Positions 3,653 through 12,047 of a stretch of 38,811 nucleotides of DNA are shown here, one piece after another. Source of the stretch: Lentimicrobium sp. L6 (GTDB lineage Bacteria; Bacteroidota; Bacteroidia; Bacteroidales; UBA12170); contig NZ_JABKCA010000057.1 in assembly GCF_013166655.1 (NCBI RefSeq), positions 1 through 38,811 of the forward strand, in the 5' to 3' direction. Positions within the stretch are counted from its first letter, which is position 1. Every line of letters starts with the position of its first letter. Below the pieces are notes generated by a model. That model was given only the letters and a program-made list of their open reading frames with translations. It was not told the DNA's origin and did not search any database. A program made the position numbers and the translations under genes.

Positions 3653-4406
3653 AAACACCCATCCCAAAAAGAGCAAAGTCGTATTTTATTGGATCTTGTG
3701 GATCTAATTTCTTTAAATTCTGGCTCACTTCTTCAACAGCTTTCCAATCATTTGATTTTCTCAGGAGTAAACCGAGCTCACGAGCATTACGAGCGGTATG
3801 CACATCTAAAGGAAGCAAAAGGTCTGCCATAGAGATCTGTTTCCATATTCCAAAATCAATTCCAGATTGGTCTTTTCGGACCATCCACCTCAGGAACATG
3901 TTTAATCGCTTCGAAGCCGAGTTTTTCTCAGGATTAGAAATGTGTTTTCGTGTTCTTAGGGGATGATCAATAGAAAAGAAAACCTCATGAAGCTCAGATA
4001 ATCCTCTTTTAATTCCTCCGGTTTTATATCCATTATTGATGACAGTCTCCAATCCATTATGATTTTGGTAGATGTTTTGAAGGCTTTCAATAAAAAAGAG
4101 AATATCTTCGGGTAACATAGTTCTGTGCCGGAAATCGCTAAATCCGATCCTATCTGCAGGGCTGTGATTCATAATAAAATAATGAGGTTCAAATTCCATC
4201 AGCTGCATTAGCTTTTTAGCATTCTTTAGAATAGTTGGCCTTTGACCCCAAGCTATGGAAGAGGCTAAAAATCCAGCTATTTCTATATCTTCTTTTTTTG
4301 AAAAATAATGAGGAATTTGAATAGGATCTAATGCAATAAATTCCTCATTACAATAGGCTTCATATTTTGAATCCAATAAGGTTTTGATTTGTTTTAGGCC
4401 GCCCAT
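3636..4406 (-). CDS. TIGR02757 (DUF2400) family protein
   Basis: 256 residues, cytosolic. It matches the TIGR02757 family by the segments FLASSIAWGQRPTILKNAKK near residue 45 and LPLDVHTARNARELGLL near 195, with the C-terminal PIKYDFALFGMG. The HTAR region resembles a helix-hairpin-helix/DNA-glycosylase-like fold, but the biochemical role of the family is not established to my knowledge. The ATG overlaps the last 13 bases of the upstream CHAT gene, so it is likely expressed with it. Confidence 0.85.
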   Translation of the reverse strand: MGGLKQIKTLLDSKYEAYCNEEFIALDPIQIPHYFSKKEDIEIAGFLASSIAWGQRPTILKNAKKLMQLMEFEPHYFIMNHSPADRIGFSDFRHRTMLPEDILFFIESLQNIYQNHNGLETVINNGYKTGGIKRGLSELHEVFFSIDHPLRTRKHISNPEKNSASKRLNMFLRWMVRKDQSGIDFGIWKQISMADLLLPLDVHTARNARELGLLLRKSNDWKAVEEVSQNLKKLDPQDPIKYDFALFGMGVFEKDL

Positions 4407-7400
4407 TTTTTTCTTCTTTGAAATATGAAAACTCCAAGGGCTAATAATATGGTGCTACCAAGAATTATCATATCCCATCTTTTCCTTTGTACAAATTGTA
4501 ATTTGGCATCATCACCCATCAGGGTTAATCCAGCCCAATAATATGGATGAGCGTATAACGCATTACCCTGTGCCAATACTTCTACCTTGGCTCTGTAAAG
4601 GGCTTGGCTTTTTTTGTCACCATTTGCCAAATATTGATAAAACTTGTCTATCACCAGAGCGCCAAACCTATCGTTCACTTCCCAAAGACTCATAATGATA
4701 GCTGGTACGCCAGCAAACTGGAAACCAGAACTTAAACTCATAACTCCTTCACCCTTTTGCAAGGCTCCATCGCCAGTGCTACATCCACTTAAAACAGCTA
4801 ATTCTGCATTTAAATCGAGTCCTAATAGTTCGTAGGTATTCACCAGACCCGAATTGGTTTCTTGGTTATAGGTGAATAGTAGTTTCGAATAAAGAGGATC
4901 CTCATCATTGATTTGGGTGTGCATAGCTAAATGAAGGATTCCTGCATTTTTTGCTTCTGTTTTAAAAATCTCTTCCGAAGCTTCTGAACCAATAAAAGTT
5001 TTAGTTTTTAGATTTCTTTCTATGCTTTCTACTTCCATTTTAGCATAATCTAAAGGGCGTAAAAAGTTATATTCTTCAGGGACGGAATCTTGTTTTTTAT
5101 TGTTTTGATATAAAGGTGCAAATGCGTAAACCTTATCGTTTGGTTTTGTTTCCCTTGACCTCATATTAAAGTAGATCTGCATGGAGTTAGCCACATTTGA
5201 TTTATGCTTTTTGATGAGATAAGGTAGGGTTCTGTAGTCGGGTCTTTCCGTTTTAACATCCTCAGTGAGCAATACATCAAAGGAAATATAGCTTAATTGT
5301 CCATCTGGAATAAAAATAAGATCTTTATTTTCGATCTGCTTTTCAATAGGTTTAATGAGTTTTTGATAGAGTGATCGACTGCTTTTAGTAAAAGTAACAA
5401 ATTCCTCGTAGCTATTATCCGTATCTACTTTTTTTAGCAGTTTGACAACGTTTTCTATGTTTTGAAAAAAACTTGAATCAATGCGCTCAGTGTAAAGCTT
5501 AACTTCTTCATGACTTAGGGTGATGATATTCAGTAAGCTGTCACTAATAGAATAATTAATAAAAGCAGTATTTGCTGGTGCTTTTTTCTGAATATCACAC
5601 ATGCTTAATTCCTTAAAACCATATTTTAGATTATAAAAACTGGAATAGTTTTCTTTATACTCTTTTTGGATGCTATCTAAACTCAAGCTAATTTGGTAGG
5701 CTTTCTGATCTAGTTCTTTGATGGTTTTAGGCTCATTGTTTAAACTGATTTCTACTTTTATTTCTTCCTCAATCCTTCCCATTTGAGACTTTAAATCCAA
5801 TTCTTTTTTAATTAAATGCTTGGGAACCTTTAATAGCTTTTTCTTTTCGAGAATATTTAATGATTGATAAAGTGTAAAGGATTTCTTTCCTTCAATGAAA
5901 TTGAAAATCTCAGATATTACATTTGCGTCATTAGTTTTAGAATACAGAATATATCCCACATCTATAGCTTGGTTATAAACATAGTGATTTTGTTTGCTAG
6001 ATTGTAAACTTTCAATCTGATCATAATTTCTTCTTAATTCGTTGACGCAGTATATGTAGAGTTTGTAGGTGTCAAATGACATTTCTAAATCTGTTATATC
6101 ATTGGTCTTTAGATATAATAAATAGAGGCCATATGCCTTCCAAGCCAAGGCGTTATTAAAATCGGGGGTGTTTGGGATTTCATCTGCTCTTGGATTCACA
6201 TAAATATCATAATTACTGAACCTATCGGAGGAGCTGCAAAGTGAAGACTGTAAGCTATCAAGACCTTGATTTATTTCCCCTATTTCTAAATAATGAGCTC
6301 CAAGTATATTGAGAGGAGCACTTAAATAAAATGAGGGACCATTATATTGTTGATACCAATTGGTAATGGCATTTTTTAAATATTCTTCTCCCCTTGAAAC
6401 ATCCTCTTTCTGCTCAATAAGAAATTGACCATAAACATAATAGGTCTGAGAAAGTTGGAATGCTTGAGGATCGTTTAAACTCAGATAATAATCTAAAGAT
6501 ATTTGATATAGAGAGTCTGCAATGTGATTCTGTTCTAAGGAAAAAAAAACATCAGCTAAATCTCTGTAAGCCATGTTCTTGCTTTCAGGATAGAGGCTTA
6601 GCGATTCTTTATAATATTGAATGGCTATTTTCATCTTACCAAGACCTTTATATGATAATCCAATATATCTATTGATATTGGCTTTTGTGGCCCTGCTCGA
6701 ATGGGAATCTGAGCTGTAGATGTGTAAGGCCATTTTTAGTTGTTTAATAGCCTGAGTGTATTGGTTACTTAGCATTAAAGTAGAAGATTTGTCTCGAAGT
6801 AGCAGAGCTAACTCAGTCTCCTTATGGTCGAATTTTAATAGAAATTCCTCAGCAATGTTAAAGTAGCTTTCTGCTAGGTCTAAATTGTCACTATATAATT
6901 CCGCATATGCTATTTGTTTGTAAACCATATACTTTATTCTATAGTCATCTTTTTTAGAATCATCGAATCCTCGAATGGCTTTTTTAAGATAAAACCTTGA
7001 AGAATCATTGATTCTATTAGAAGAATAATGAATGGACAACATATAATAGAATTGGGCTTGGTCAGATCCTGGGTATTTCTTTTTATTGGCTATTTGAAGT
7101 CCGGTATCAATGTAAGCAAAGTATGCTTTCATTCTATTTGTCTTACGATAGCAGTTTGTGTATTTTGAATATTCATAAGCAAAAGAAGTATCGTTCTTAT
7201 AATATTCCTTGTATAGATGAAAGTAGTCTTTGAATTCAGAAATAGCCTGTATGTAATTCCGGTCGTAATAACTCAACAAGGCTTTTAATTGCGTTGCTTT
7301 GGTTAATAGATGCCTATCGCTATGGTTGCTTATTGCAAACCTATTATATATGGTTTCAATGTGAGTACGGTAATCGTTCACATTGTATTTGTCAATAGAA

Positions 7401-7591
7401 TTAAGGTAGTTGATAATATTGCTTTTATAATTGGCATTGTTAAGGATAATGGAGTCGGCCAAATGTAAATGAAGTTCATCAATATTATTGGTCAAAGGAT
7501 TGTTTTTCGAGTTTCTTTGTTTAGGAGATAATTGCCCAAAAACGTTGAAGAAAACTAAGTGAATAAAAATCAATACAATGAAATACCTCAT
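4394..7591 (-). CDS. exported TPR-CHAT (caspase-like) protein with C-terminal membrane anchor
   Basis: 1065 residues. A signal peptide (1-19) is followed by a long helical TPR-type array (about 60-480, with repeats such as ATKANINRYIGLSYKGLGKM), a charged coiled-coil stretch (about 590-650) and a CHAT domain (about 720-1025). CHAT is a caspase-clan peptidase fold; the catalytic pair is visible as His in LHLAMH (about 890) and Cys in LSGCSTG (about 937). A last hydrophobic helix (about 1038-1056) followed by RRKKWAA anchors the C-terminus. Signal plus C-terminal anchor suggests most of the protein lies in the periplasm, which is inferred. Substrate unknown. A near-match promoter box (TATTTTAG) sits about 15 bases upstream, and a terminator separates it from the preceding T9SS gene. 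Confidence 0.88.
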   Translation of the reverse strand: MRYFIVLIFIHLVFFNVFGQLSPKQRNSKNNPLTNNIDELHLHLADSIILNNANYKSNIINYLNSIDKYNVNDYRTHIETIYNRFAISNHSDRHLLTKATQLKALLSYYDRNYIQAISEFKDYFHLYKEYYKNDTSFAYEYSKYTNCYRKTNRMKAYFAYIDTGLQIANKKKYPGSDQAQFYYMLSIHYSSNRINDSSRFYLKKAIRGFDDSKKDDYRIKYMVYKQIAYAELYSDNLDLAESYFNIAEEFLLKFDHKETELALLLRDKSSTLMLSNQYTQAIKQLKMALHIYSSDSHSSRATKANINRYIGLSYKGLGKMKIAIQYYKESLSLYPESKNMAYRDLADVFFSLEQNHIADSLYQISLDYYLSLNDPQAFQLSQTYYVYGQFLIEQKEDVSRGEEYLKNAITNWYQQYNGPSFYLSAPLNILGAHYLEIGEINQGLDSLQSSLCSSSDRFSNYDIYVNPRADEIPNTPDFNNALAWKAYGLYLLYLKTNDITDLEMSFDTYKLYIYCVNELRRNYDQIESLQSSKQNHYVYNQAIDVGYILYSKTNDANVISEIFNFIEGKKSFTLYQSLNILEKKKLLKVPKHLIKKELDLKSQMGRIEEEIKVEISLNNEPKTIKELDQKAYQISLSLDSIQKEYKENYSSFYNLKYGFKELSMCDIQKKAPANTAFINYSISDSLLNIITLSHEEVKLYTERIDSSFFQNIENVVKLLKKVDTDNSYEEFVTFTKSSRSLYQKLIKPIEKQIENKDLIFIPDGQLSYISFDVLLTEDVKTERPDYRTLPYLIKKHKSNVANSMQIYFNMRSRETKPNDKVYAFAPLYQNNKKQDSVPEEYNFLRPLDYAKMEVESIERNLKTKTFIGSEASEEIFKTEAKNAGILHLAMHTQINDEDPLYSKLLFTYNQETNSGLVNTYELLGLDLNAELAVLSGCSTGDGALQKGEGVMSLSSGFQFAGVPAIIMSLWEVNDRFGALVIDKFYQYLANGDKKSQALYRAKVEVLAQGNALYAHPYYWAGLTLMGDDAKLQFVQRKRWDMIILGSTILLALGVFIFQRRKKWAA

Positions 7592-7687: not shown

Positions 7688-8905
7688 CTATTTACGGACC
7701 GTTATAGATCCTTGAACTGATTTTGATTGATAATTTATTTGATAGAAGTATAAACCTCCTCGTAAATTTCTTGTATTGATTTGAAGTTCTTGGTTACTTA
7801 CTGTTGAATAATAGGTTTCAACCATTTGACCAACTGTATTGTATATTTTAACTTCAACTTTACTATCGGTATTTAAATGAATACTGAATGATTCGTTACA
7901 TGGATTTGGATAAGCTGTAGCAAGCTTACTCATCATGTTTTGATTTGTTGTTTTGAATTGAACGGAAGAAAAGTTAACATAAGGTAGTATTTGACCTTTA
8001 TTGTCTAATATATGTGTGCCTTCTACGATTTCAAAATGCTCTATTTGCTCCACGCTAATATCAGTCTTTTGTTTAATTCTTATATTTAGAACAGCTGTTT
8101 CGGAGTCAAATTTGTAGGTTTCTTGTCCAGTCCATCCAATTCTAATTTCATCATTTACAATATTATATTCTAAACCTTCTATACTTGATTCTATAGCTAG
8201 AACATCTATGAGTTCATCATTATAATTTAAAACGATTCCTATTCCATTTGTATTGATGGTTTCTGTAAAATATATGGGAACTAGTAATTCTTCATTGCTA
8301 AGTTCAGTGATAGATGTGTAGGTCATCATAGCATTGAATACAGATTTATCATCTCCGTTTTCAGTATTTAATGTGCCATTAGCCACTGTTCCTGCTGGAC
8401 CCCCGGTTGCCTTTAATTCATTGATCTCAAAATTCCAATCAGGTAAGTACCAATCGCCAACTGGTAAAGGTTGCCCCATAATATAGTAATTGAATAGTAA
8501 GGTCCAGAAGTCACTACTTGTGACTTGTCCATCCCCAGTTACATCTGCAGCTATCATTTGAATTTCATCAAACTCAATATATCCATAAAGATAACTTAGA
8601 ACAGTAAAAGCATCAGCTAAATCTACATATGTGTTTTCTGCATCATATTCAAATTTTGCTGTATATGATTCCCCAATCATCAAATCTTCAAAGAAAAAAT
8701 ATCCATCGGAATTAGTATAGGTGGTTGCGATAAATTCGTTATTACTATCGAATAAATCAACTTCAACTCCACCCATAATGTGGTCAGGTTGATTCAAACA
8801 AATAACATTACATGAGTAATTATCCGTTTGCGCATAGCTATTTATTGAAAATAACGTTGTCAATATTAGACTAAAAAATGCTAAAAATAGTTTGGTGTTT
8901 TTCAT
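7688..8905 (-). CDS. type IX-secreted protein with dockerin-like and cohesin-like segments
   Basis: 405 residues. Signal peptide about 1-25. Residues 30-95 resemble a prealbumin-like/carboxypeptidase-regulatory beta domain (VDLFDSNNEFIATTYTNSDGYFFFEDL). About 95-145 holds a dockerin-like calcium loop (ADVTGDGQVTSSDFWTL). About 200-315 is a beta-sandwich like that of cohesin-type segments. The last 75 residues form a type A T9SS sorting domain (YPNPCNESFSIHL, VKIYNTVGQMVE, GGLYFYQI, ending in a basic tail). It should therefore cross the outer membrane by the type IX system and be attached to or released from the cell surface. No enzyme domain is seen. Upstream lies the module shared with the divergent histidine kinase. 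Confidence 0.87.
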   Translation of the reverse strand: MKNTKLFLAFFSLILTTLFSINSYAQTDNYSCNVICLNQPDHIMGGVEVDLFDSNNEFIATTYTNSDGYFFFEDLMIGESYTAKFEYDAENTYVDLADAFTVLSYLYGYIEFDEIQMIAADVTGDGQVTSSDFWTLLFNYYIMGQPLPVGDWYLPDWNFEINELKATGGPAGTVANGTLNTENGDDKSVFNAMMTYTSITELSNEELLVPIYFTETINTNGIGIVLNYNDELIDVLAIESSIEGLEYNIVNDEIRIGWTGQETYKFDSETAVLNIRIKQKTDISVEQIEHFEIVEGTHILDNKGQILPYVNFSSVQFKTTNQNMMSKLATAYPNPCNESFSIHLNTDSKVEVKIYNTVGQMVETYYSTVSNQELQINTRNLRGGLYFYQINYQSKSVQGSITVRK

Positions 8906-8937
8906 AATGCTTATTCTTTTTTACTTCTCCTATCACT

Positions 8938-8969
8938 TATTAATACCTAAAAATGGAAAAACGTAACCC
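8938..8969 (-). promoter_or_regulatory. bipartite promoter-like module, T9SS side
   Basis: Minus strand: GGGTTACGTTTT, 12 bases, TATTAATA. It is identical in both parts and in spacing to the module at 9305-9336 on the other strand. It ends 32 bases before ATG 8905. The TATTAATA could act as a -10 and TTACG as a -35, or both as a protein-binding site. See findings. Confidence 0.65.
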
Positions 8970-9304
8970 TAAAAAAGGAATTATTTTTTGTAAAAGATTG
9001 TTTCTCTTGCTTAAGTTGCACGAATACAATGCTTTGGATTCCAGTTAAAAAATAAGAAAAGAGCTGTTATTTTTATCCATATGTTATTAATGTATAAAAT
9101 TAAGCTAAATGATTAGCGATTTCAATGTTTGTAGATGAGGTTTAGCATATTTCTCAGAAGTGGAAGAAACAGACCACATTATCAGATGCAAATATTTAAA
9201 TATGCTTTGTTAACAAGTGCCTCATTTGTTAATAGTTATTAGGATTCTATTGTTGATAACTAATAGGACCTAATATAGAGAAAGCAAAAAAAATGTGGAC
9301 TTTT

Positions 9305-9336
9305 GGGTTACGTTTTGTGTGGAAACGATATTAATA
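9305..9336 (+). promoter_or_regulatory. bipartite promoter-like module, histidine kinase side
   Basis: Plus strand: GGGTTACGTTTT, 12 unrelated bases, TATTAATA, ending 17 bases before ATG 9354. It pairs with the copy at 8938-8969 in the same 448-base divergent intergenic region. A purine-rich stretch (AGGGGG, 9340-9345) follows and can serve as ribosome-binding site. The rest of the 8906-9353 spacer shows no gene. Confidence 0.65.
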
Positions 9337-9353
9337 GTTAGGGGGAATTAACT

Positions 9354-10208
9354 ATGATTAATGAAAACTATGTAAAAACACTCGAGAAACGAATTTTGGA
9401 CCTCGAGGAAGAATTAAAATTTAAGGATAAAGAGGTAGATGGCCTCAAGGGAGCATTTTTAGCAAATGTATCTCATGAGATTCGTACGCCAATGAATGCC
9501 ATTGTTGGTTTTTCAAGTTTGTTAAAGGATCCAGGCTTTAGTCCGGAAGAAAAAAATGAATTTATTGATGAAATCACCCAGGCTTCCAATCATTTAACTG
9601 AATTGATAGAGGATGTTATTGAAGTAGCTAATTTGCAATTCAATAAAAAATCTCAATCTGTTAAAGAGGTTATTGATCCGTATCAGTTGTTATTCGAAAT
9701 TTTTGAGGAGTATCAGTATAAAAAACAAGCCTTATATAAAGGTGAAATTGAGATGCGAATCAAAACCAATAAGGATTTATTGAGTAAAGAATTTATCTCC
9801 AATCCTCGAATGCTTCATAAAGTTCTTGAGAATTTAATCGACAATGCTTTTAAGTTTACCAAAGAAGGTAGCATAGAGTTAAATATCGAATTTTACGATA
9901 ATTACTTGGAGTATGTGGTTAGTGATACAGGTATTGGTATTGCTTCTGATAGATTGAGCACTATTTATAATAATTTCAGTAAGGTTTGGAAGAAGAATGG
10001 CGAAGTACTATATGAAGGTCTAGGAATAGGATTGTCATCAGCAAAAAACTTCGTGGATTTATTGGGAGGTATTATTCAAGTACAATCTCAAGAGGGAAAA
10101 GGAACTATTTTTTATGTGAGTGTTCCTTATATCTTTAAAGATAAGCCACTTGAATTAAACGATGTTGAAACAAAAAATCCAAGTCAATATCTTTCTTTGG
10201 GTGCTTGA
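9354..10208 (+). CDS. soluble orphan histidine kinase without sensor domain
   Basis: 284 residues with no signal or membrane segment. A short coiled coil (about 4-32) precedes the HisKA domain; the phospho-acceptor is His41 in NVSHEIRTPMN. The HATPase_c domain follows: N-box LENLIDNAFKF (Asn164), G1 box SDTGIGI (Asp191), G2 box EGLGIGLS (about 221-228). All catalytic boxes look intact, so it should autophosphorylate. No receiver domain and no adjacent response regulator are present, so its partner is encoded elsewhere. Such kinases in this phylum often receive input through partners or the coiled coil. It is divergent from the T9SS cargo gene and shares its promoter-like module, so the two may be co-regulated. 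Confidence 0.9.
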   Translation: MINENYVKTLEKRILDLEEELKFKDKEVDGLKGAFLANVSHEIRTPMNAIVGFSSLLKDPGFSPEEKNEFIDEITQASNHLTELIEDVIEVANLQFNKKSQSVKEVIDPYQLLFEIFEEYQYKKQALYKGEIEMRIKTNKDLLSKEFISNPRMLHKVLENLIDNAFKFTKEGSIELNIEFYDNYLEYVVSDTGIGIASDRLSTIYNNFSKVWKKNGEVLYEGLGIGLSSAKNFVDLLGGIIQVQSQEGKGTIFYVSVPYIFKDKPLELNDVETKNPSQYLSLGA

Positions 10209-10258
10209 ACCTGTTGTTGGAGAACCAACGATTAAACTCATATTTCTGAAAATAAAAA

Positions 10259-10283
10259 AGGCAGTTACTCTCAATAACTGCCT
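10259..10283 (-). terminator. minus-strand intrinsic terminator without an obvious gene upstream
   Basis: AGGCAGTTA and TAACTGCCT (9-bp perfect stem, 7-base loop). The T-tract is only on the minus strand (CCTTTTTTATTTT); on the plus strand the stem is followed by CTCGCGC. It therefore ends a minus-strand transcript, yet no annotated minus gene lies upstream (10284-10661). See the finding for the short frame that ends just before it. Confidence 0.7.
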
Positions 10284-10293
10284 CGCGCATAAA

Positions 10294-10434
10294 CTATAAA
10301 CACTCACTAATTCTTAATATCGTTGCCTTATTATCATTCAAAAATAATAGGAAATACTCTCCATTGCAATGCCTAATACGTAAATAGGTCTTTTCAATCT
10401 GTAGGTGGATGTGTTTTAGGCGAATTTGTGTTTT
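10294..10434 (-). pseudogene. possible gene remnant (46 open codons, LytTR-like pattern)
   Basis: A 46-codon frame, opened by a TAA at 10437-10435, ends with TAG 10 bases before the minus-strand terminator. It has no ATG or GTG start. Its segment RIRHCNGEYFLLFLNDNK followed by an LRIS-type strand resembles by eye the beta strands of a LytTR DNA-binding domain. This could be the tail of a decayed response-regulator gene, or chance. Very uncertain. Confidence 0.2.
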
Positions 10435-10497
10435 TTATTTCAAATGTTTCCTTCCTATTTCATGTATTTGATTATTTTTACCACCTGAAAATCAAAA

Positions 10498-10656
10498 ATG
10501 AGCGATAAGTCATTTGTATATTTAATCGTGGGCATTGTCATAGCCCATTTTGTATTTGGAGCAGGGTATCTAATTTGGAAAATTTACACCGCCCCCAAGT
10601 CTAAGTCCGAACCTGAAAAACTAGACAACAACAATCATATTCATTCTGAAAATTAA
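10498..10656 (+). CDS. 52-residue single-pass membrane microprotein
   Basis: A reading frame of 52 codons beginning MSDKSFVYLIV. Residues about 6-27 form one hydrophobic helix (VGIVIAHFVFGAGYLIW), and the C-terminal half is hydrophilic and charged (KSKSEPEKLDNNNH). It ends 5 bases before the start of the sugar permease gene, so cotranscription and translational coupling are likely. Family not recognised. It may be an accessory subunit of the transporter, which is inferred from position only. No clear Shine-Dalgarno site is seen. Confidence 0.6.
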   Translation: MSDKSFVYLIVGIVIAHFVFGAGYLIWKIYTAPKSKSEPEKLDNNNHIHSEN

Positions 10657-10661
10657 TAATT

Positions 10662-12047
10662 ATGGAACAAACTAAAACAAACTACGGTTTCTCACTATCT
10701 GTACTCACGTCCCTTTTCTTTATGTGGGGGTTTATCACTGTTTTAAATGATATTCTTATTCCTCACTTGAAAAATGTATTTGACTTAACTTATTTCCAAG
10801 CTATGTTGATCCAGTTTTCATTTTTTAGTGCTTATTTTATTGGAGGCTTCCTCTATTTTATTATTTCAAAAACATCCGGGGACCCTATCAATAAAATAGG
10901 ATACAAAAATGGAATTCTCTTGGGTTTATTAGTATCGGCTATTGGAACGGCATTATTCTACCCTGCTGCACAATTTCATATGTATGGTTTTTTTCTTTCT
11001 GCATTATTCGTGCTTGGCCTTGGTTTTGCTGTTTTGCAAATTGCAGCTAATCCTTATGTGGCTATTTTAGGACCTGAAAAACAAGCCTCTGCTCGATTAA
11101 ATCTTTCTCAAGGTTTTAATTCATTTGGTACTACTATCGGACCGGTAATTGGAGGATTCTTAATTTTCGAATATTTCAATGTAGGACAAGAAGGTGCTGA
11201 TTCTGTAATCAAGCCCTATTTAATGTTAACTGCAATGCTATTAATTCTGTTGGTGATTATTAAAATGATACCATTGCCAAGAATTCAACAGGAGGTGAGT
11301 AAAGAAAGTACAGGAAAAGGGGCATTGGCATACCCACACCTAAAGTATGGTGCCATCGCTATTTTTCTCTATGTGGGAGCTGAAGTTGCTATTGGTAGTA
11401 TTTTAGTGAGCTTTATTGGCCTCGATAATATCGCTGGGATGTCTGAATCTGCAGCCTCTGCCTTTATTGCCTTTTATTGGGGAGGAGCCATGATTGGCCG
11501 TTTCTTAGGCGCTATTTCATTAAGTGAAATGGAATCTAAAAAGAAATTCCCATTAATGTTTGTTGTTTCTTTAATTGCTTTTGCAGTCATCTTCTTTGTG
11601 GTTGATGCCAGAAATAGTATTAACTTTCTTGATATAGCACCTTACCTAGGCTTCTTAGTACTAAACTATTTTGGTTTTATATTTGGAAAATCAATGGCGG
11701 CAAGGACCTTAACTGTATTTGCTATTTTCCCAATTGTATTATTGATGGTGGGGATGTTTACAGAAGGAAGTATAGCCATGTGGGCTATTTTAGGTATTGG
11801 AATTTTTAATTCAATTATGTGGTCTAATATCTTCACGCTCGCTATTAAAGGGCTTGGCAATAATACCAGCCAGGGTTCTAGTGTTTTAGTGATGTTTATT
11901 GTTGGTGGAGCTATTCTTCCTCCAATCCAAGGTTTACTAGCCGATTATATTGGTGTTCAATTGTCTTTCTTTGTTCCATTATTAAGTTATGTTTACTTAG
12001 CATGGTATGGATGGAAGGGACATGTTATTAAAGCTCCAAAACAATAA
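10662..12047 (+). CDS. sugar:proton symporter, FucP/GluP type MFS permease
   Basis: 461 residues with 12 predicted membrane helices. It belongs to the fucose/glucose-galactose branch of the MFS: FFMWGFITVLNDILIPHLK in the first helix, and the signature GLGFAVLQIAANPYVAILGP followed by SARLNLSQGFNSFGTTIGP, typical of gluP/fucP-like proteins. It should import a neutral hexose or deoxyhexose at the inner membrane; the exact sugar cannot be read from sequence. It lies between the microprotein (5 bases upstream) and another MFS gene (6 bases downstream), forming one operon. No sugar catabolic gene accompanies it here. Confidence 0.9.
   Translation: MEQTKTNYGFSLSVLTSLFFMWGFITVLNDILIPHLKNVFDLTYFQAMLIQFSFFSAYFIGGFLYFIISKTSGDPINKIGYKNGILLGLLVSAIGTALFYPAAQFHMYGFFLSALFVLGLGFAVLQIAANPYVAILGPEKQASARLNLSQGFNSFGTTIGPVIGGFLIFEYFNVGQEGADSVIKPYLMLTAMLLILLVIIKMIPLPRIQQEVSKESTGKGALAYPHLKYGAIAIFLYVGAEVAIGSILVSFIGLDNIAGMSESAASAFIAFYWGGAMIGRFLGAISLSEMESKKKFPLMFVVSLIAFAVIFFVVDARNSINFLDIAPYLGFLVLNYFGFIFGKSMAARTLTVFAIFPIVLLMVGMFTEGSIAMWAILGIGIFNSIMWSNIFTLAIKGLGNNTSQGSSVLVMFIVGGAILPPIQGLLADYIGVQLSFFVPLLSYVYLAWYGWKGHVIKAPKQ

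Follow-up and report, generated by a model that had tools for sequence, protein, structure and literature searches.

The window, i.e., the whole 38,811-nucleotide stretch of Lentimicrobium sp. L6 DNA analysed here, carries a gene for a T9SS-secreted surface protein and a divergent gene for a histidine kinase, whose start codons are separated by a spacer of 448 bases (8906-9353, from the ORFs), the length given in the preliminary description (Table 1). The surface protein also contains an SdrD_B-like segment that scores below the Pfam cut-off, and 96 bases downstream of its gene lies that of a TPR-CHAT (caspase-like) protein, which the preliminary description had not noted, the two likely forming one operon. 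By hydropathy, the TPR-CHAT protein has an N-terminal export- or signal-like segment and a C-terminal membrane segment, so that the protease would face the periplasm. Its CHAT-site residues H887, H891 and C937 are identical in all 48 aligned sequences, the window's included, and it is the sole CHAT match at E ≤ 1e-10 in the window's genome (96.5% complete). This genome is referred to as G000; other G numbers denote genomes of the same genus, L numbers loci and C numbers contigs of G000. The kinase shows no membrane segment by hydropathy and no input domain in Pfam.

Table 1. Features of the window and perfect sites of the refined pattern in its genome
Feature	Position or contig	Strand	Description
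1065-aa TPR-CHAT (caspase-like) protein	4394..7591	-	Pfam CHAT, 184 bits
405-aa secreted surface protein	7688..8905	-	Signal segment, dockerin-I, T9SS type A sorting domain (Pfam, NCBIfam)
Predicted ECF-type promoter, T9SS-protein/CHAT genes	8938..8969	-	Start codon 32 bases downstream
Boxes of the T9SS-side copy	8969-8958 and 8945-8938	-	Box 1 GGGTTACGTTTT; 12-base gap; box 2 TATTAATA
Predicted ECF-type promoter copy before the histidine kinase	9305..9336	+	Start codon 17 bases downstream
Hairpin ATAGTTAG-GGGGAA-TTAACTAT	9334..9355	+	G run in loop; over the kinase start codon
284-aa histidine kinase	9354..10208	+	HisKA and HATPase
Perfect sites 1 and 2	Window		Surface-protein gene; kinase gene
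Perfect site 3	C8		1102-aa T9SS subtilase; GEVED, PKD and T9SS sorting domains (Pfam)
Perfect site 4	C125		734-aa surface-fibre-like protein, no Pfam match
Perfect site 5	C59		195-aa ECF sigma factor gene, then 245-aa single-pass TPR protein

The spacer contains the two-box module GGGTTACGTTTT-N12-TATTAATA in two exact copies, one per strand and each pointing towards its gene, just as had been described; the 12-base gaps differ between the copies, in agreement with their description as unrelated. A scan of the window allowing up to three mismatches retrieves these two matches against 0.01 expected, and none of 100 shuffles yields two. In a post-hoc control, an opposed 12-mer common to both strands arose in 70 of 2,000 dinucleotide shuffles of the spacer, and one accompanied by an equally spaced 8-mer pair in 8 of 2,000. 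Since some such pair does arise in these eight shuffles, the coincidence in the spacer is by itself only moderately surprising, and the significance of the module comes from the genome scan described below, not from the spacer alone. The housekeeping -7 box TAnnTTTG, previously reported as missing from either copy, is absent from both strands of the entire spacer. Compared with this housekeeping Bacteroidota promoter, as given in the accessible part of PMC9723704, the module occupies the same upstream position, yet its box 2 does not match.

Sites across the genome and the genus

The preliminary description had proposed a genome scan together with a list of downstream genes. With up to three mismatches, the full pattern occurs at six places in the 5.1-Mb genome against nine for the reversed-pattern control: the window's two copies are exact, one place has one mismatch, two places have two and one has three. 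The refined pattern GGGKTACGYTTT-N12-TATTAA, fitted to the first five places found with the full pattern, gives five perfect sites, none at one mismatch, one at two and 11 at three, i.e., 17 in total against 59 for the reversed control. As a spacing control, a gap of 13 instead of 12 bases returns 18 places, all at three mismatches and none at two or fewer, against 43 for its reversed control. Because the reversed controls outnumber the pattern in each of these scans, places at three mismatches mean nothing; they were excluded as evidence, except for the kinase side of G003 and the surface-protein side of G009, which were sought at orthologous places. All five perfect sites precede genes, each lying upstream of, and facing, an ORF at a distance of 1-157 bases.

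One of these sites lies on a short contig (C125, locus L009) with two very similar surface-fibre-like genes, at 13-975 and 5111-7315. By eye, the pair is similar over the length of the shorter gene, and the perfect motif stands before the gene of the 734-aa protein.

The two window copies are conserved very differently. On the surface-protein side, the motif is present with 0-3 substitutions in 7 of 7 same-genus genomes in which that side is visible: none in G000, G003, G007 and G001, one in G002 and G006, and three in G009, whose copy shares the GGGTAACAATTT form with its own ECF promoter. The kinase gene is found at E ≤ 1e-60 in 8 of the 11 genus genomes, and a full kinase-side match only in G000 (1/8). 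In G003, whose kinase is 92% identical, the kinase side reads GAATCACGTTTT, with box 2 intact and three substitutions, all in box 1. None of the other six has the motif at three or fewer substitutions; five of them (G002, G006, G007, G001 and G010) carry TAnnTTTG 19-23 nt before the kinase start, and G009 has neither. The contrast of 7/7 with 1/8 argues that the surface-protein/CHAT promoter is the old one, and that the kinase copy was either gained recently in G000 or lost in its relatives. The earlier proposal that kinase and surface protein belong to one regulon is thus upheld for G000 alone.

The same distribution would fit a functionless kinase-side copy, arisen by chance or transiently present, with a promoter on the T9SS/CHAT side alone: the full match occurs in a single genome, the G003 substitutions all fall in box 1, and most of the remaining relatives have TAnnTTTG in its place. 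However, all 20 box bases of the kinase-side copy are those of the surface-protein copy, i.e., the form used in G000, and in Ancylomarina and Marinifilum the motif precedes the peptide-then-kinase stretch of the related cluster described below. We regard a functionless kinase-side copy as possible but doubtful, and retain the reading of both copies as predicted promoters in G000.

The z score of the hairpin over the kinase start codon is -2.3 in both G000 and G003, which share an identical stretch, and -1.9 in G002. Its word AGTTAGGGGGA persists in G000, G003, G002 and G009, unlike the promoter upstream, and the hairpin is a possible translation-control element.

A family-wide pattern detects 27 places distributed over 11 of 11 genus genomes, with none for the reversed control. 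Of the 27, eight are ECF promoters and another three are G000 sites that went into shaping the pattern, leaving 16 new places. Behind the genus sites lie surface-protein/CHAT genes, the subtilase and the fibre-like protein and, by eye, lipoproteins and small helix-turn-helix genes, as well as one C10 peptidase identified by Pfam. The test of drift also used 27 sites: the single sites of G008 and G010 were excluded, as was one member of an identical G006 pair, and those at C125, the G002 ECF gene and the G009 surface-protein side were added. Box identity is 0.927 within genomes vs 0.814 between genomes, a difference reached by 0 of 5,000 label shuffles, whereas spacer identity is 0.392 within vs 0.398 between (2,783 of 5,000 label shuffles). 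In the nine G000 and G003 sites of this set, box 1 reads K-T-A-C-G and box 2 TATTAA; the other eighteen have TAA or TGA in box 1 and CAT or CAC in box 2. Since the boxes drift in concert at unlinked places and the spacer does not, these comparisons of sequence point to one trans-acting factor that reads all sites, most likely the autoregulated ECF sigma factor encoded on C59.

Small helix-turn-helix-like genes (66-113 aa) recur by eye behind the motif (L104, L111, L112, L219 and L227; in L227 the motif lies 476 nt away and has one mismatch). Several of them are followed by lipoprotein-like genes and one by a C10 peptidase gene. No Pfam match was obtained for five proteins or fragments near motif sites and for two more (L201, L100).

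The ECF sigma gene and its predicted promoter

In G000, the GTG start codon of the C59 sigma gene lies one base past the 32-base motif. The encoded protein scores 22.5 bits with Pfam Sigma70_ECF (cut-off 21.1) and 40.9 bits with NCBIfam sigma70-ECF, just below the cut-off of 42.9; searched in 41 genomes, it has a match at E ≤ 0.001 in 32, and the nearest ECF among the matches in named records is that of a Bacteroidales metagenome-assembled genome (L119, 84% identity). The boxes stand directly before the ECF GTG in 9 of 9 same-genus genomes with visible upstream DNA, reading GGGTTACGTTTT-N12-TATTAATAA-GTG in G003 and GGGTAACGTTTT-N13-ATTAATAGA-GTG in G005; in G002, GGGTAAC and CATTAATA are kept and the T run is lost. 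In the window's genus, the ECF/anti-sigma-like pair lies near porX and tsaE, on a contig separate from the window. The porX gene (NF052313, 819 bits) occupies 9958-11532 of the C59 locus (L007), ~3 kb upstream of the ECF gene; among seven named same-genus loci with upstream DNA, six have porX close to the ECF gene as well.

An alignment of 13 ECF proteins led to the best 80 of 269 relatives in named Bacteroidota records, 72 of which lie outside the genus. Within 75 nt upstream of these 72 non-genus ECF genes, GGTWAC-N(1-2)-TTT occurs in 32, against 0.21 expected from shuffles; TAnnTTTG occurs upstream of 29, against 6.56 expected. Only one gene has both boxes and 12 have neither. Autoregulation by a GGTAAC-type box is therefore not universal, given the 29 genes with TAnnTTTG and the 12 with neither.

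Two asymmetric boxes with fixed spacing that face the gene, together with a conserved site before the sigma's own operon within and outside the genus, indicate with good confidence an autoregulated ECF promoter. Very probably, to judge from these sequences, the repeated word is the promoter of a single alternative sigma factor whose own gene is among its targets. The earlier suggestion of a -35/-10 pair for an alternative sigma factor is strongly supported by these results, the candidate factor being the C59 ECF sigma. Against a promoter speaks the position of the ECF GTG only 1-2 nt after box 2, as a leaderless or nearly leaderless transcript would therefore be needed; in the accessible part of PMC9723704, leaderless mRNAs make up only 5.5% of the classified mRNAs of Flavobacterium psychrophilum.

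The preliminary description had also offered two half-sites of one regulator. The module would then be an operator for a transcription factor, such as a response regulator or PorX, which would activate the sigma gene and the other targets through a different promoter; an activator could indeed read a fixed two-box element as well, and PorX is encoded near the ECF gene throughout most of the genus loci. Yet GGGTTACGTTTT and TATTAATA are different words, neither direct nor inverted copies of each other, and as asymmetric boxes they face the gene. Box 2 occupies the position required of a -10/-7 box, the spacer retains no TAnnTTTG, and at the 72 homologous ECF genes the box and TAnnTTTG are mutually exclusive but for one gene. 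The half-site reading is thus disfavoured, and we consider an operator very improbable. PorX as a direct regulator was kept as a rival only: at the 72 non-genus ECF loci (flanks of up to 6 kb, tblastn), a single weak match of ~115 residues was found, in L173. A housekeeping promoter was rejected on the absence of TAnnTTTG from the spacer and the mutual exclusion at homologous ECF genes. In what follows, the module is treated as a predicted promoter of the ECF sigma.

Related clusters in other Bacteroidota

At the 80 ECF loci, with flanks of up to 6 kb, tblastn searches with the window or C59 proteins (E ≤ 1e-6) place a TPR-CHAT gene near the ECF gene in 48 loci, a TPR anti-sigma-like gene in 54, a T9SS protein in 3 and a kinase in 18, the last count being weak because kinases are common. 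No CHAT gene is found in the remaining 32 loci, nor in 10 of 36 even where both flanks are complete (26 of 36 have one). Short double-glycine peptides are encoded in 36 of the 80 loci, all 36 with CHAT and none among the 32 CHAT-less loci (Fisher 1e-12), and the three loci with a T9SS protein lack such a peptide. The double-glycine regular expression matched 39 of 80 loci (3 in reversed DNA); by eye, L130, L133 and L198 were discarded as unlike peptides, along with one extra match each in L126 and L145. None of the three discarded loci has a CHAT match, and retaining them would give 36 of 39 with CHAT; loci shortened by contig ends may miss a CHAT or peptide gene. With double-glycine leader profiles, one of six peptides passes (TIGR01847, 19.0 bits, cut-off 15.7), three are weak and two give no match.

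In 28 of the 36 peptide loci, no more than 110 nt separate the strict box from the first scored peptide. The other eight comprise three with a one-substitution box in that stretch, three whose exact box is 101-246 nt distant, and two lacking a box within 450 nt. Examples of such peptides are found in L154 (10752-11575), L155 (10722), L165 (10500), L174 (10841), L179 (271-437) and L145 (9634). In several loci the peptides are arranged in tandem, usually with the ECF-type box before the first copy, and some of them have an acidic and then hydrophobic C-terminus, e.g., DDILV.

In six named strains, a locally adjusted pattern with up to one mismatch occurs at 34 places against 8 in reversed controls; a spacing control with the gap one base longer, run on six genomes, gives 2 places against 4. 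Fourteen of the 34 places are exact, and two of the six strains have no exact place. Three of the exact places lie before ECF genes and four before double-glycine peptide genes, and among the remaining seven are places before an anti-sigma-like gene (by eye) and a C25 (gingipain-like) peptidase gene (Pfam). Of nine genomes searched, seven contain a single CHAT match at E ≤ 1e-10, four named strains among them. In Marinifilum flexuosum, Ancylomarina salipaludis and Prolixibacter denitrificans, the sole CHAT gene stands between motif-bearing ECF and peptide genes, and that of Sunxiuqinia elliptica lies at a distance of 2 kb from a site with one mismatch that precedes a peptide gene. In L167, the motif, ECF gene, anti-sigma-like gene, CHAT gene, T9SS protein gene and the start of a kinase gene are all found within 7 kb.

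ECF specificities can overlap. The sites might accordingly be promoters of a different, paralogous ECF sigma factor, with the C59 sigma only a target, and sigma-like paralogs do exist in G000 (22 first-look candidates scored, 2 at E ≤ 0.001). However, the motif stays with homologs of the C59 ECF gene across families and drifts with the genome, and in the named relatives it stands before ECF and peptide genes that belong to one cluster. We judge a paralogous sigma factor quite unlikely, and keep the C59 ECF sigma as the candidate reader.

These comparisons lead us to infer that the module forms one cluster elsewhere in Bacteroidota and is split over two loci in the window's genus, where a common promoter would re-link them; the window would hold the half with CHAT, the T9SS protein and the kinase. 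In L145, L149, L172, L143 and L153, the CHAT-adjacent ECF gene has TAnnTTTG, and the peptide/anti-sigma-like part has the GGTAAC box; clusters of the L145 type are perhaps a version with a constitutive sigma gene. In L146 (10847) and L175 (5806), the motif lies upstream of an exporter-like gene, with a peptide gene in between. By its DCGPACL word, this gene may encode a peptidase-containing (C39) ABC exporter.

A proposed protease-sigma circuit and known systems

The second gene of the ECF operon matches only TPR and TPR-like families in Pfam and nothing in NCBIfam; its product is a putative anti-sigma factor by position and layout, not by profile. All 39 homologs have exactly one membrane segment, starting at residue 76-132. 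The structural model (mean pLDDT 86.0, pTM 0.58) has a helical N-terminal part and TPRs behind the membrane segment, and its fold matches are numerous TPR domains, including several whose structures contain bound peptides, a generic outcome for TPRs. The CHAT model (mean pLDDT 80.9) finds its best fold matches in separase and the Craspase TPR-CHAT protein, with DdvA, a transmembrane anti-sigma factor, at rank 14. The window protein thus combines a TPR-CHAT protease fold with the catalytic His and Cys. Among PDB sequences, phmmer finds no match for it.

We consider it highly probable that the module acts as a promoter for a single ECF sigma factor. Box 1 would serve as the -35 and box 2 as the -10 element, across the 12-base gap. 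The sigma factor would transcribe its own operon, encoding itself and the single-pass anti-sigma-like protein whose C-terminal half is TPR, together with the genes for the T9SS-secreted protein and the membrane-anchored TPR-CHAT protein, the T9SS subtilase, the surface-fibre-like protein and, in G000 only, the soluble histidine kinase. The trigger may be a secreted partner, i.e., the T9SS protein in the window's genus and the double-glycine peptide in other lineages, upon which the periplasmic TPR-CHAT protease would cleave or otherwise inactivate the TPR anti-sigma protein; the ECF sigma would then be freed and the positive loop closed. By analogy with known systems, we propose with modest confidence that the CHAT protease acts on the anti-sigma protein and that the peptide or T9SS protein is the signal. 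More tentatively, the unit may be a CRISPR-free circuit resembling peptide quorum sensing, in which a peptide or T9SS ligand is sensed by the periplasmic TPRs, CHAT inactivates the anti-sigma protein, and the freed sigma would activate its own operon together with the ligand gene, secreted proteases and the kinase; type III-E CRISPR might then have re-used such a protease-inhibitor-sigma unit.

To our knowledge, few ECF regulons have been worked out in Bacteroidota. The short repeated word may allow the promoters of a single ECF sigma to be read in many Bacteroidota, and it leads to the partners of a non-CRISPR TPR-CHAT protease that appears to be uncharacterised. If CHAT does act on the anti-sigma protein, the unit would be a natural relative of the type III-E CRISPR protease-sigma arm; should the peptides act as signals, Gram-negative Bacteroidota would possess a peptide-based communication system. 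The combination of CHAT protease, putative membrane anti-sigma protein and secreted peptides or surface proteins appears to be a widespread and apparently undescribed signalling module: among the literature matches listed, at the level of titles and abstract starts and in a collection with few subscription papers, no description of an ECF/TPR-anti-sigma/CHAT/peptide unit in Bacteroidota was found, and a search for the CHAT domain together with ECF sigma and Bacteroidetes returned no paper. PADLOC matched no model to any of the four proteins scanned.

The closest parallel is type III-E CRISPR, in which, according to the accessible part of PMC10028731, the TPR-CHAT protein Csx29 cleaves Csx30, an inhibitor of the ECF sigma factor CASP-sigma, which has binding motifs in its own locus. 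As in that CASP/Craspase system, a TPR-CHAT protease, an ECF sigma factor and an inhibitor, here putative, occur in one genetic unit, and the ECF sigma has motifs in its own locus. The window CHAT fold matches the Craspase TPR-CHAT structure 8d9f_A with a TM score, normalised to the target, of 0.56. Unlike in CASP, the CHAT protein here carries both an export-like segment and a membrane segment at its C-terminus, the role of inhibitor would fall to a single-pass TPR protein, and the cluster includes secreted peptides or T9SS proteins.

RpoE/RseA/DegS, a system also named in the accessible part of PMC10028731, is another point of comparison. It is a protease-activated ECF/anti-sigma pair whose single-pass anti-sigma layout and autoregulated sigma operon are also predicted for the present module, whereas the candidate protease here is caspase-like (CHAT) instead of DegS and the C-terminal part of the putative anti-sigma protein is TPR. 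PorX/PorY-SigP of Porphyromonas, as presented in the accessible parts of PMC4800418 and PMC8265659, likewise ties an ECF sigma factor to T9SS, and PorX is encoded near the ECF gene here. In contrast to that system, the T9SS-related targets of the present module are cargo proteins, and TPR anti-sigma-like and CHAT genes belong to it.
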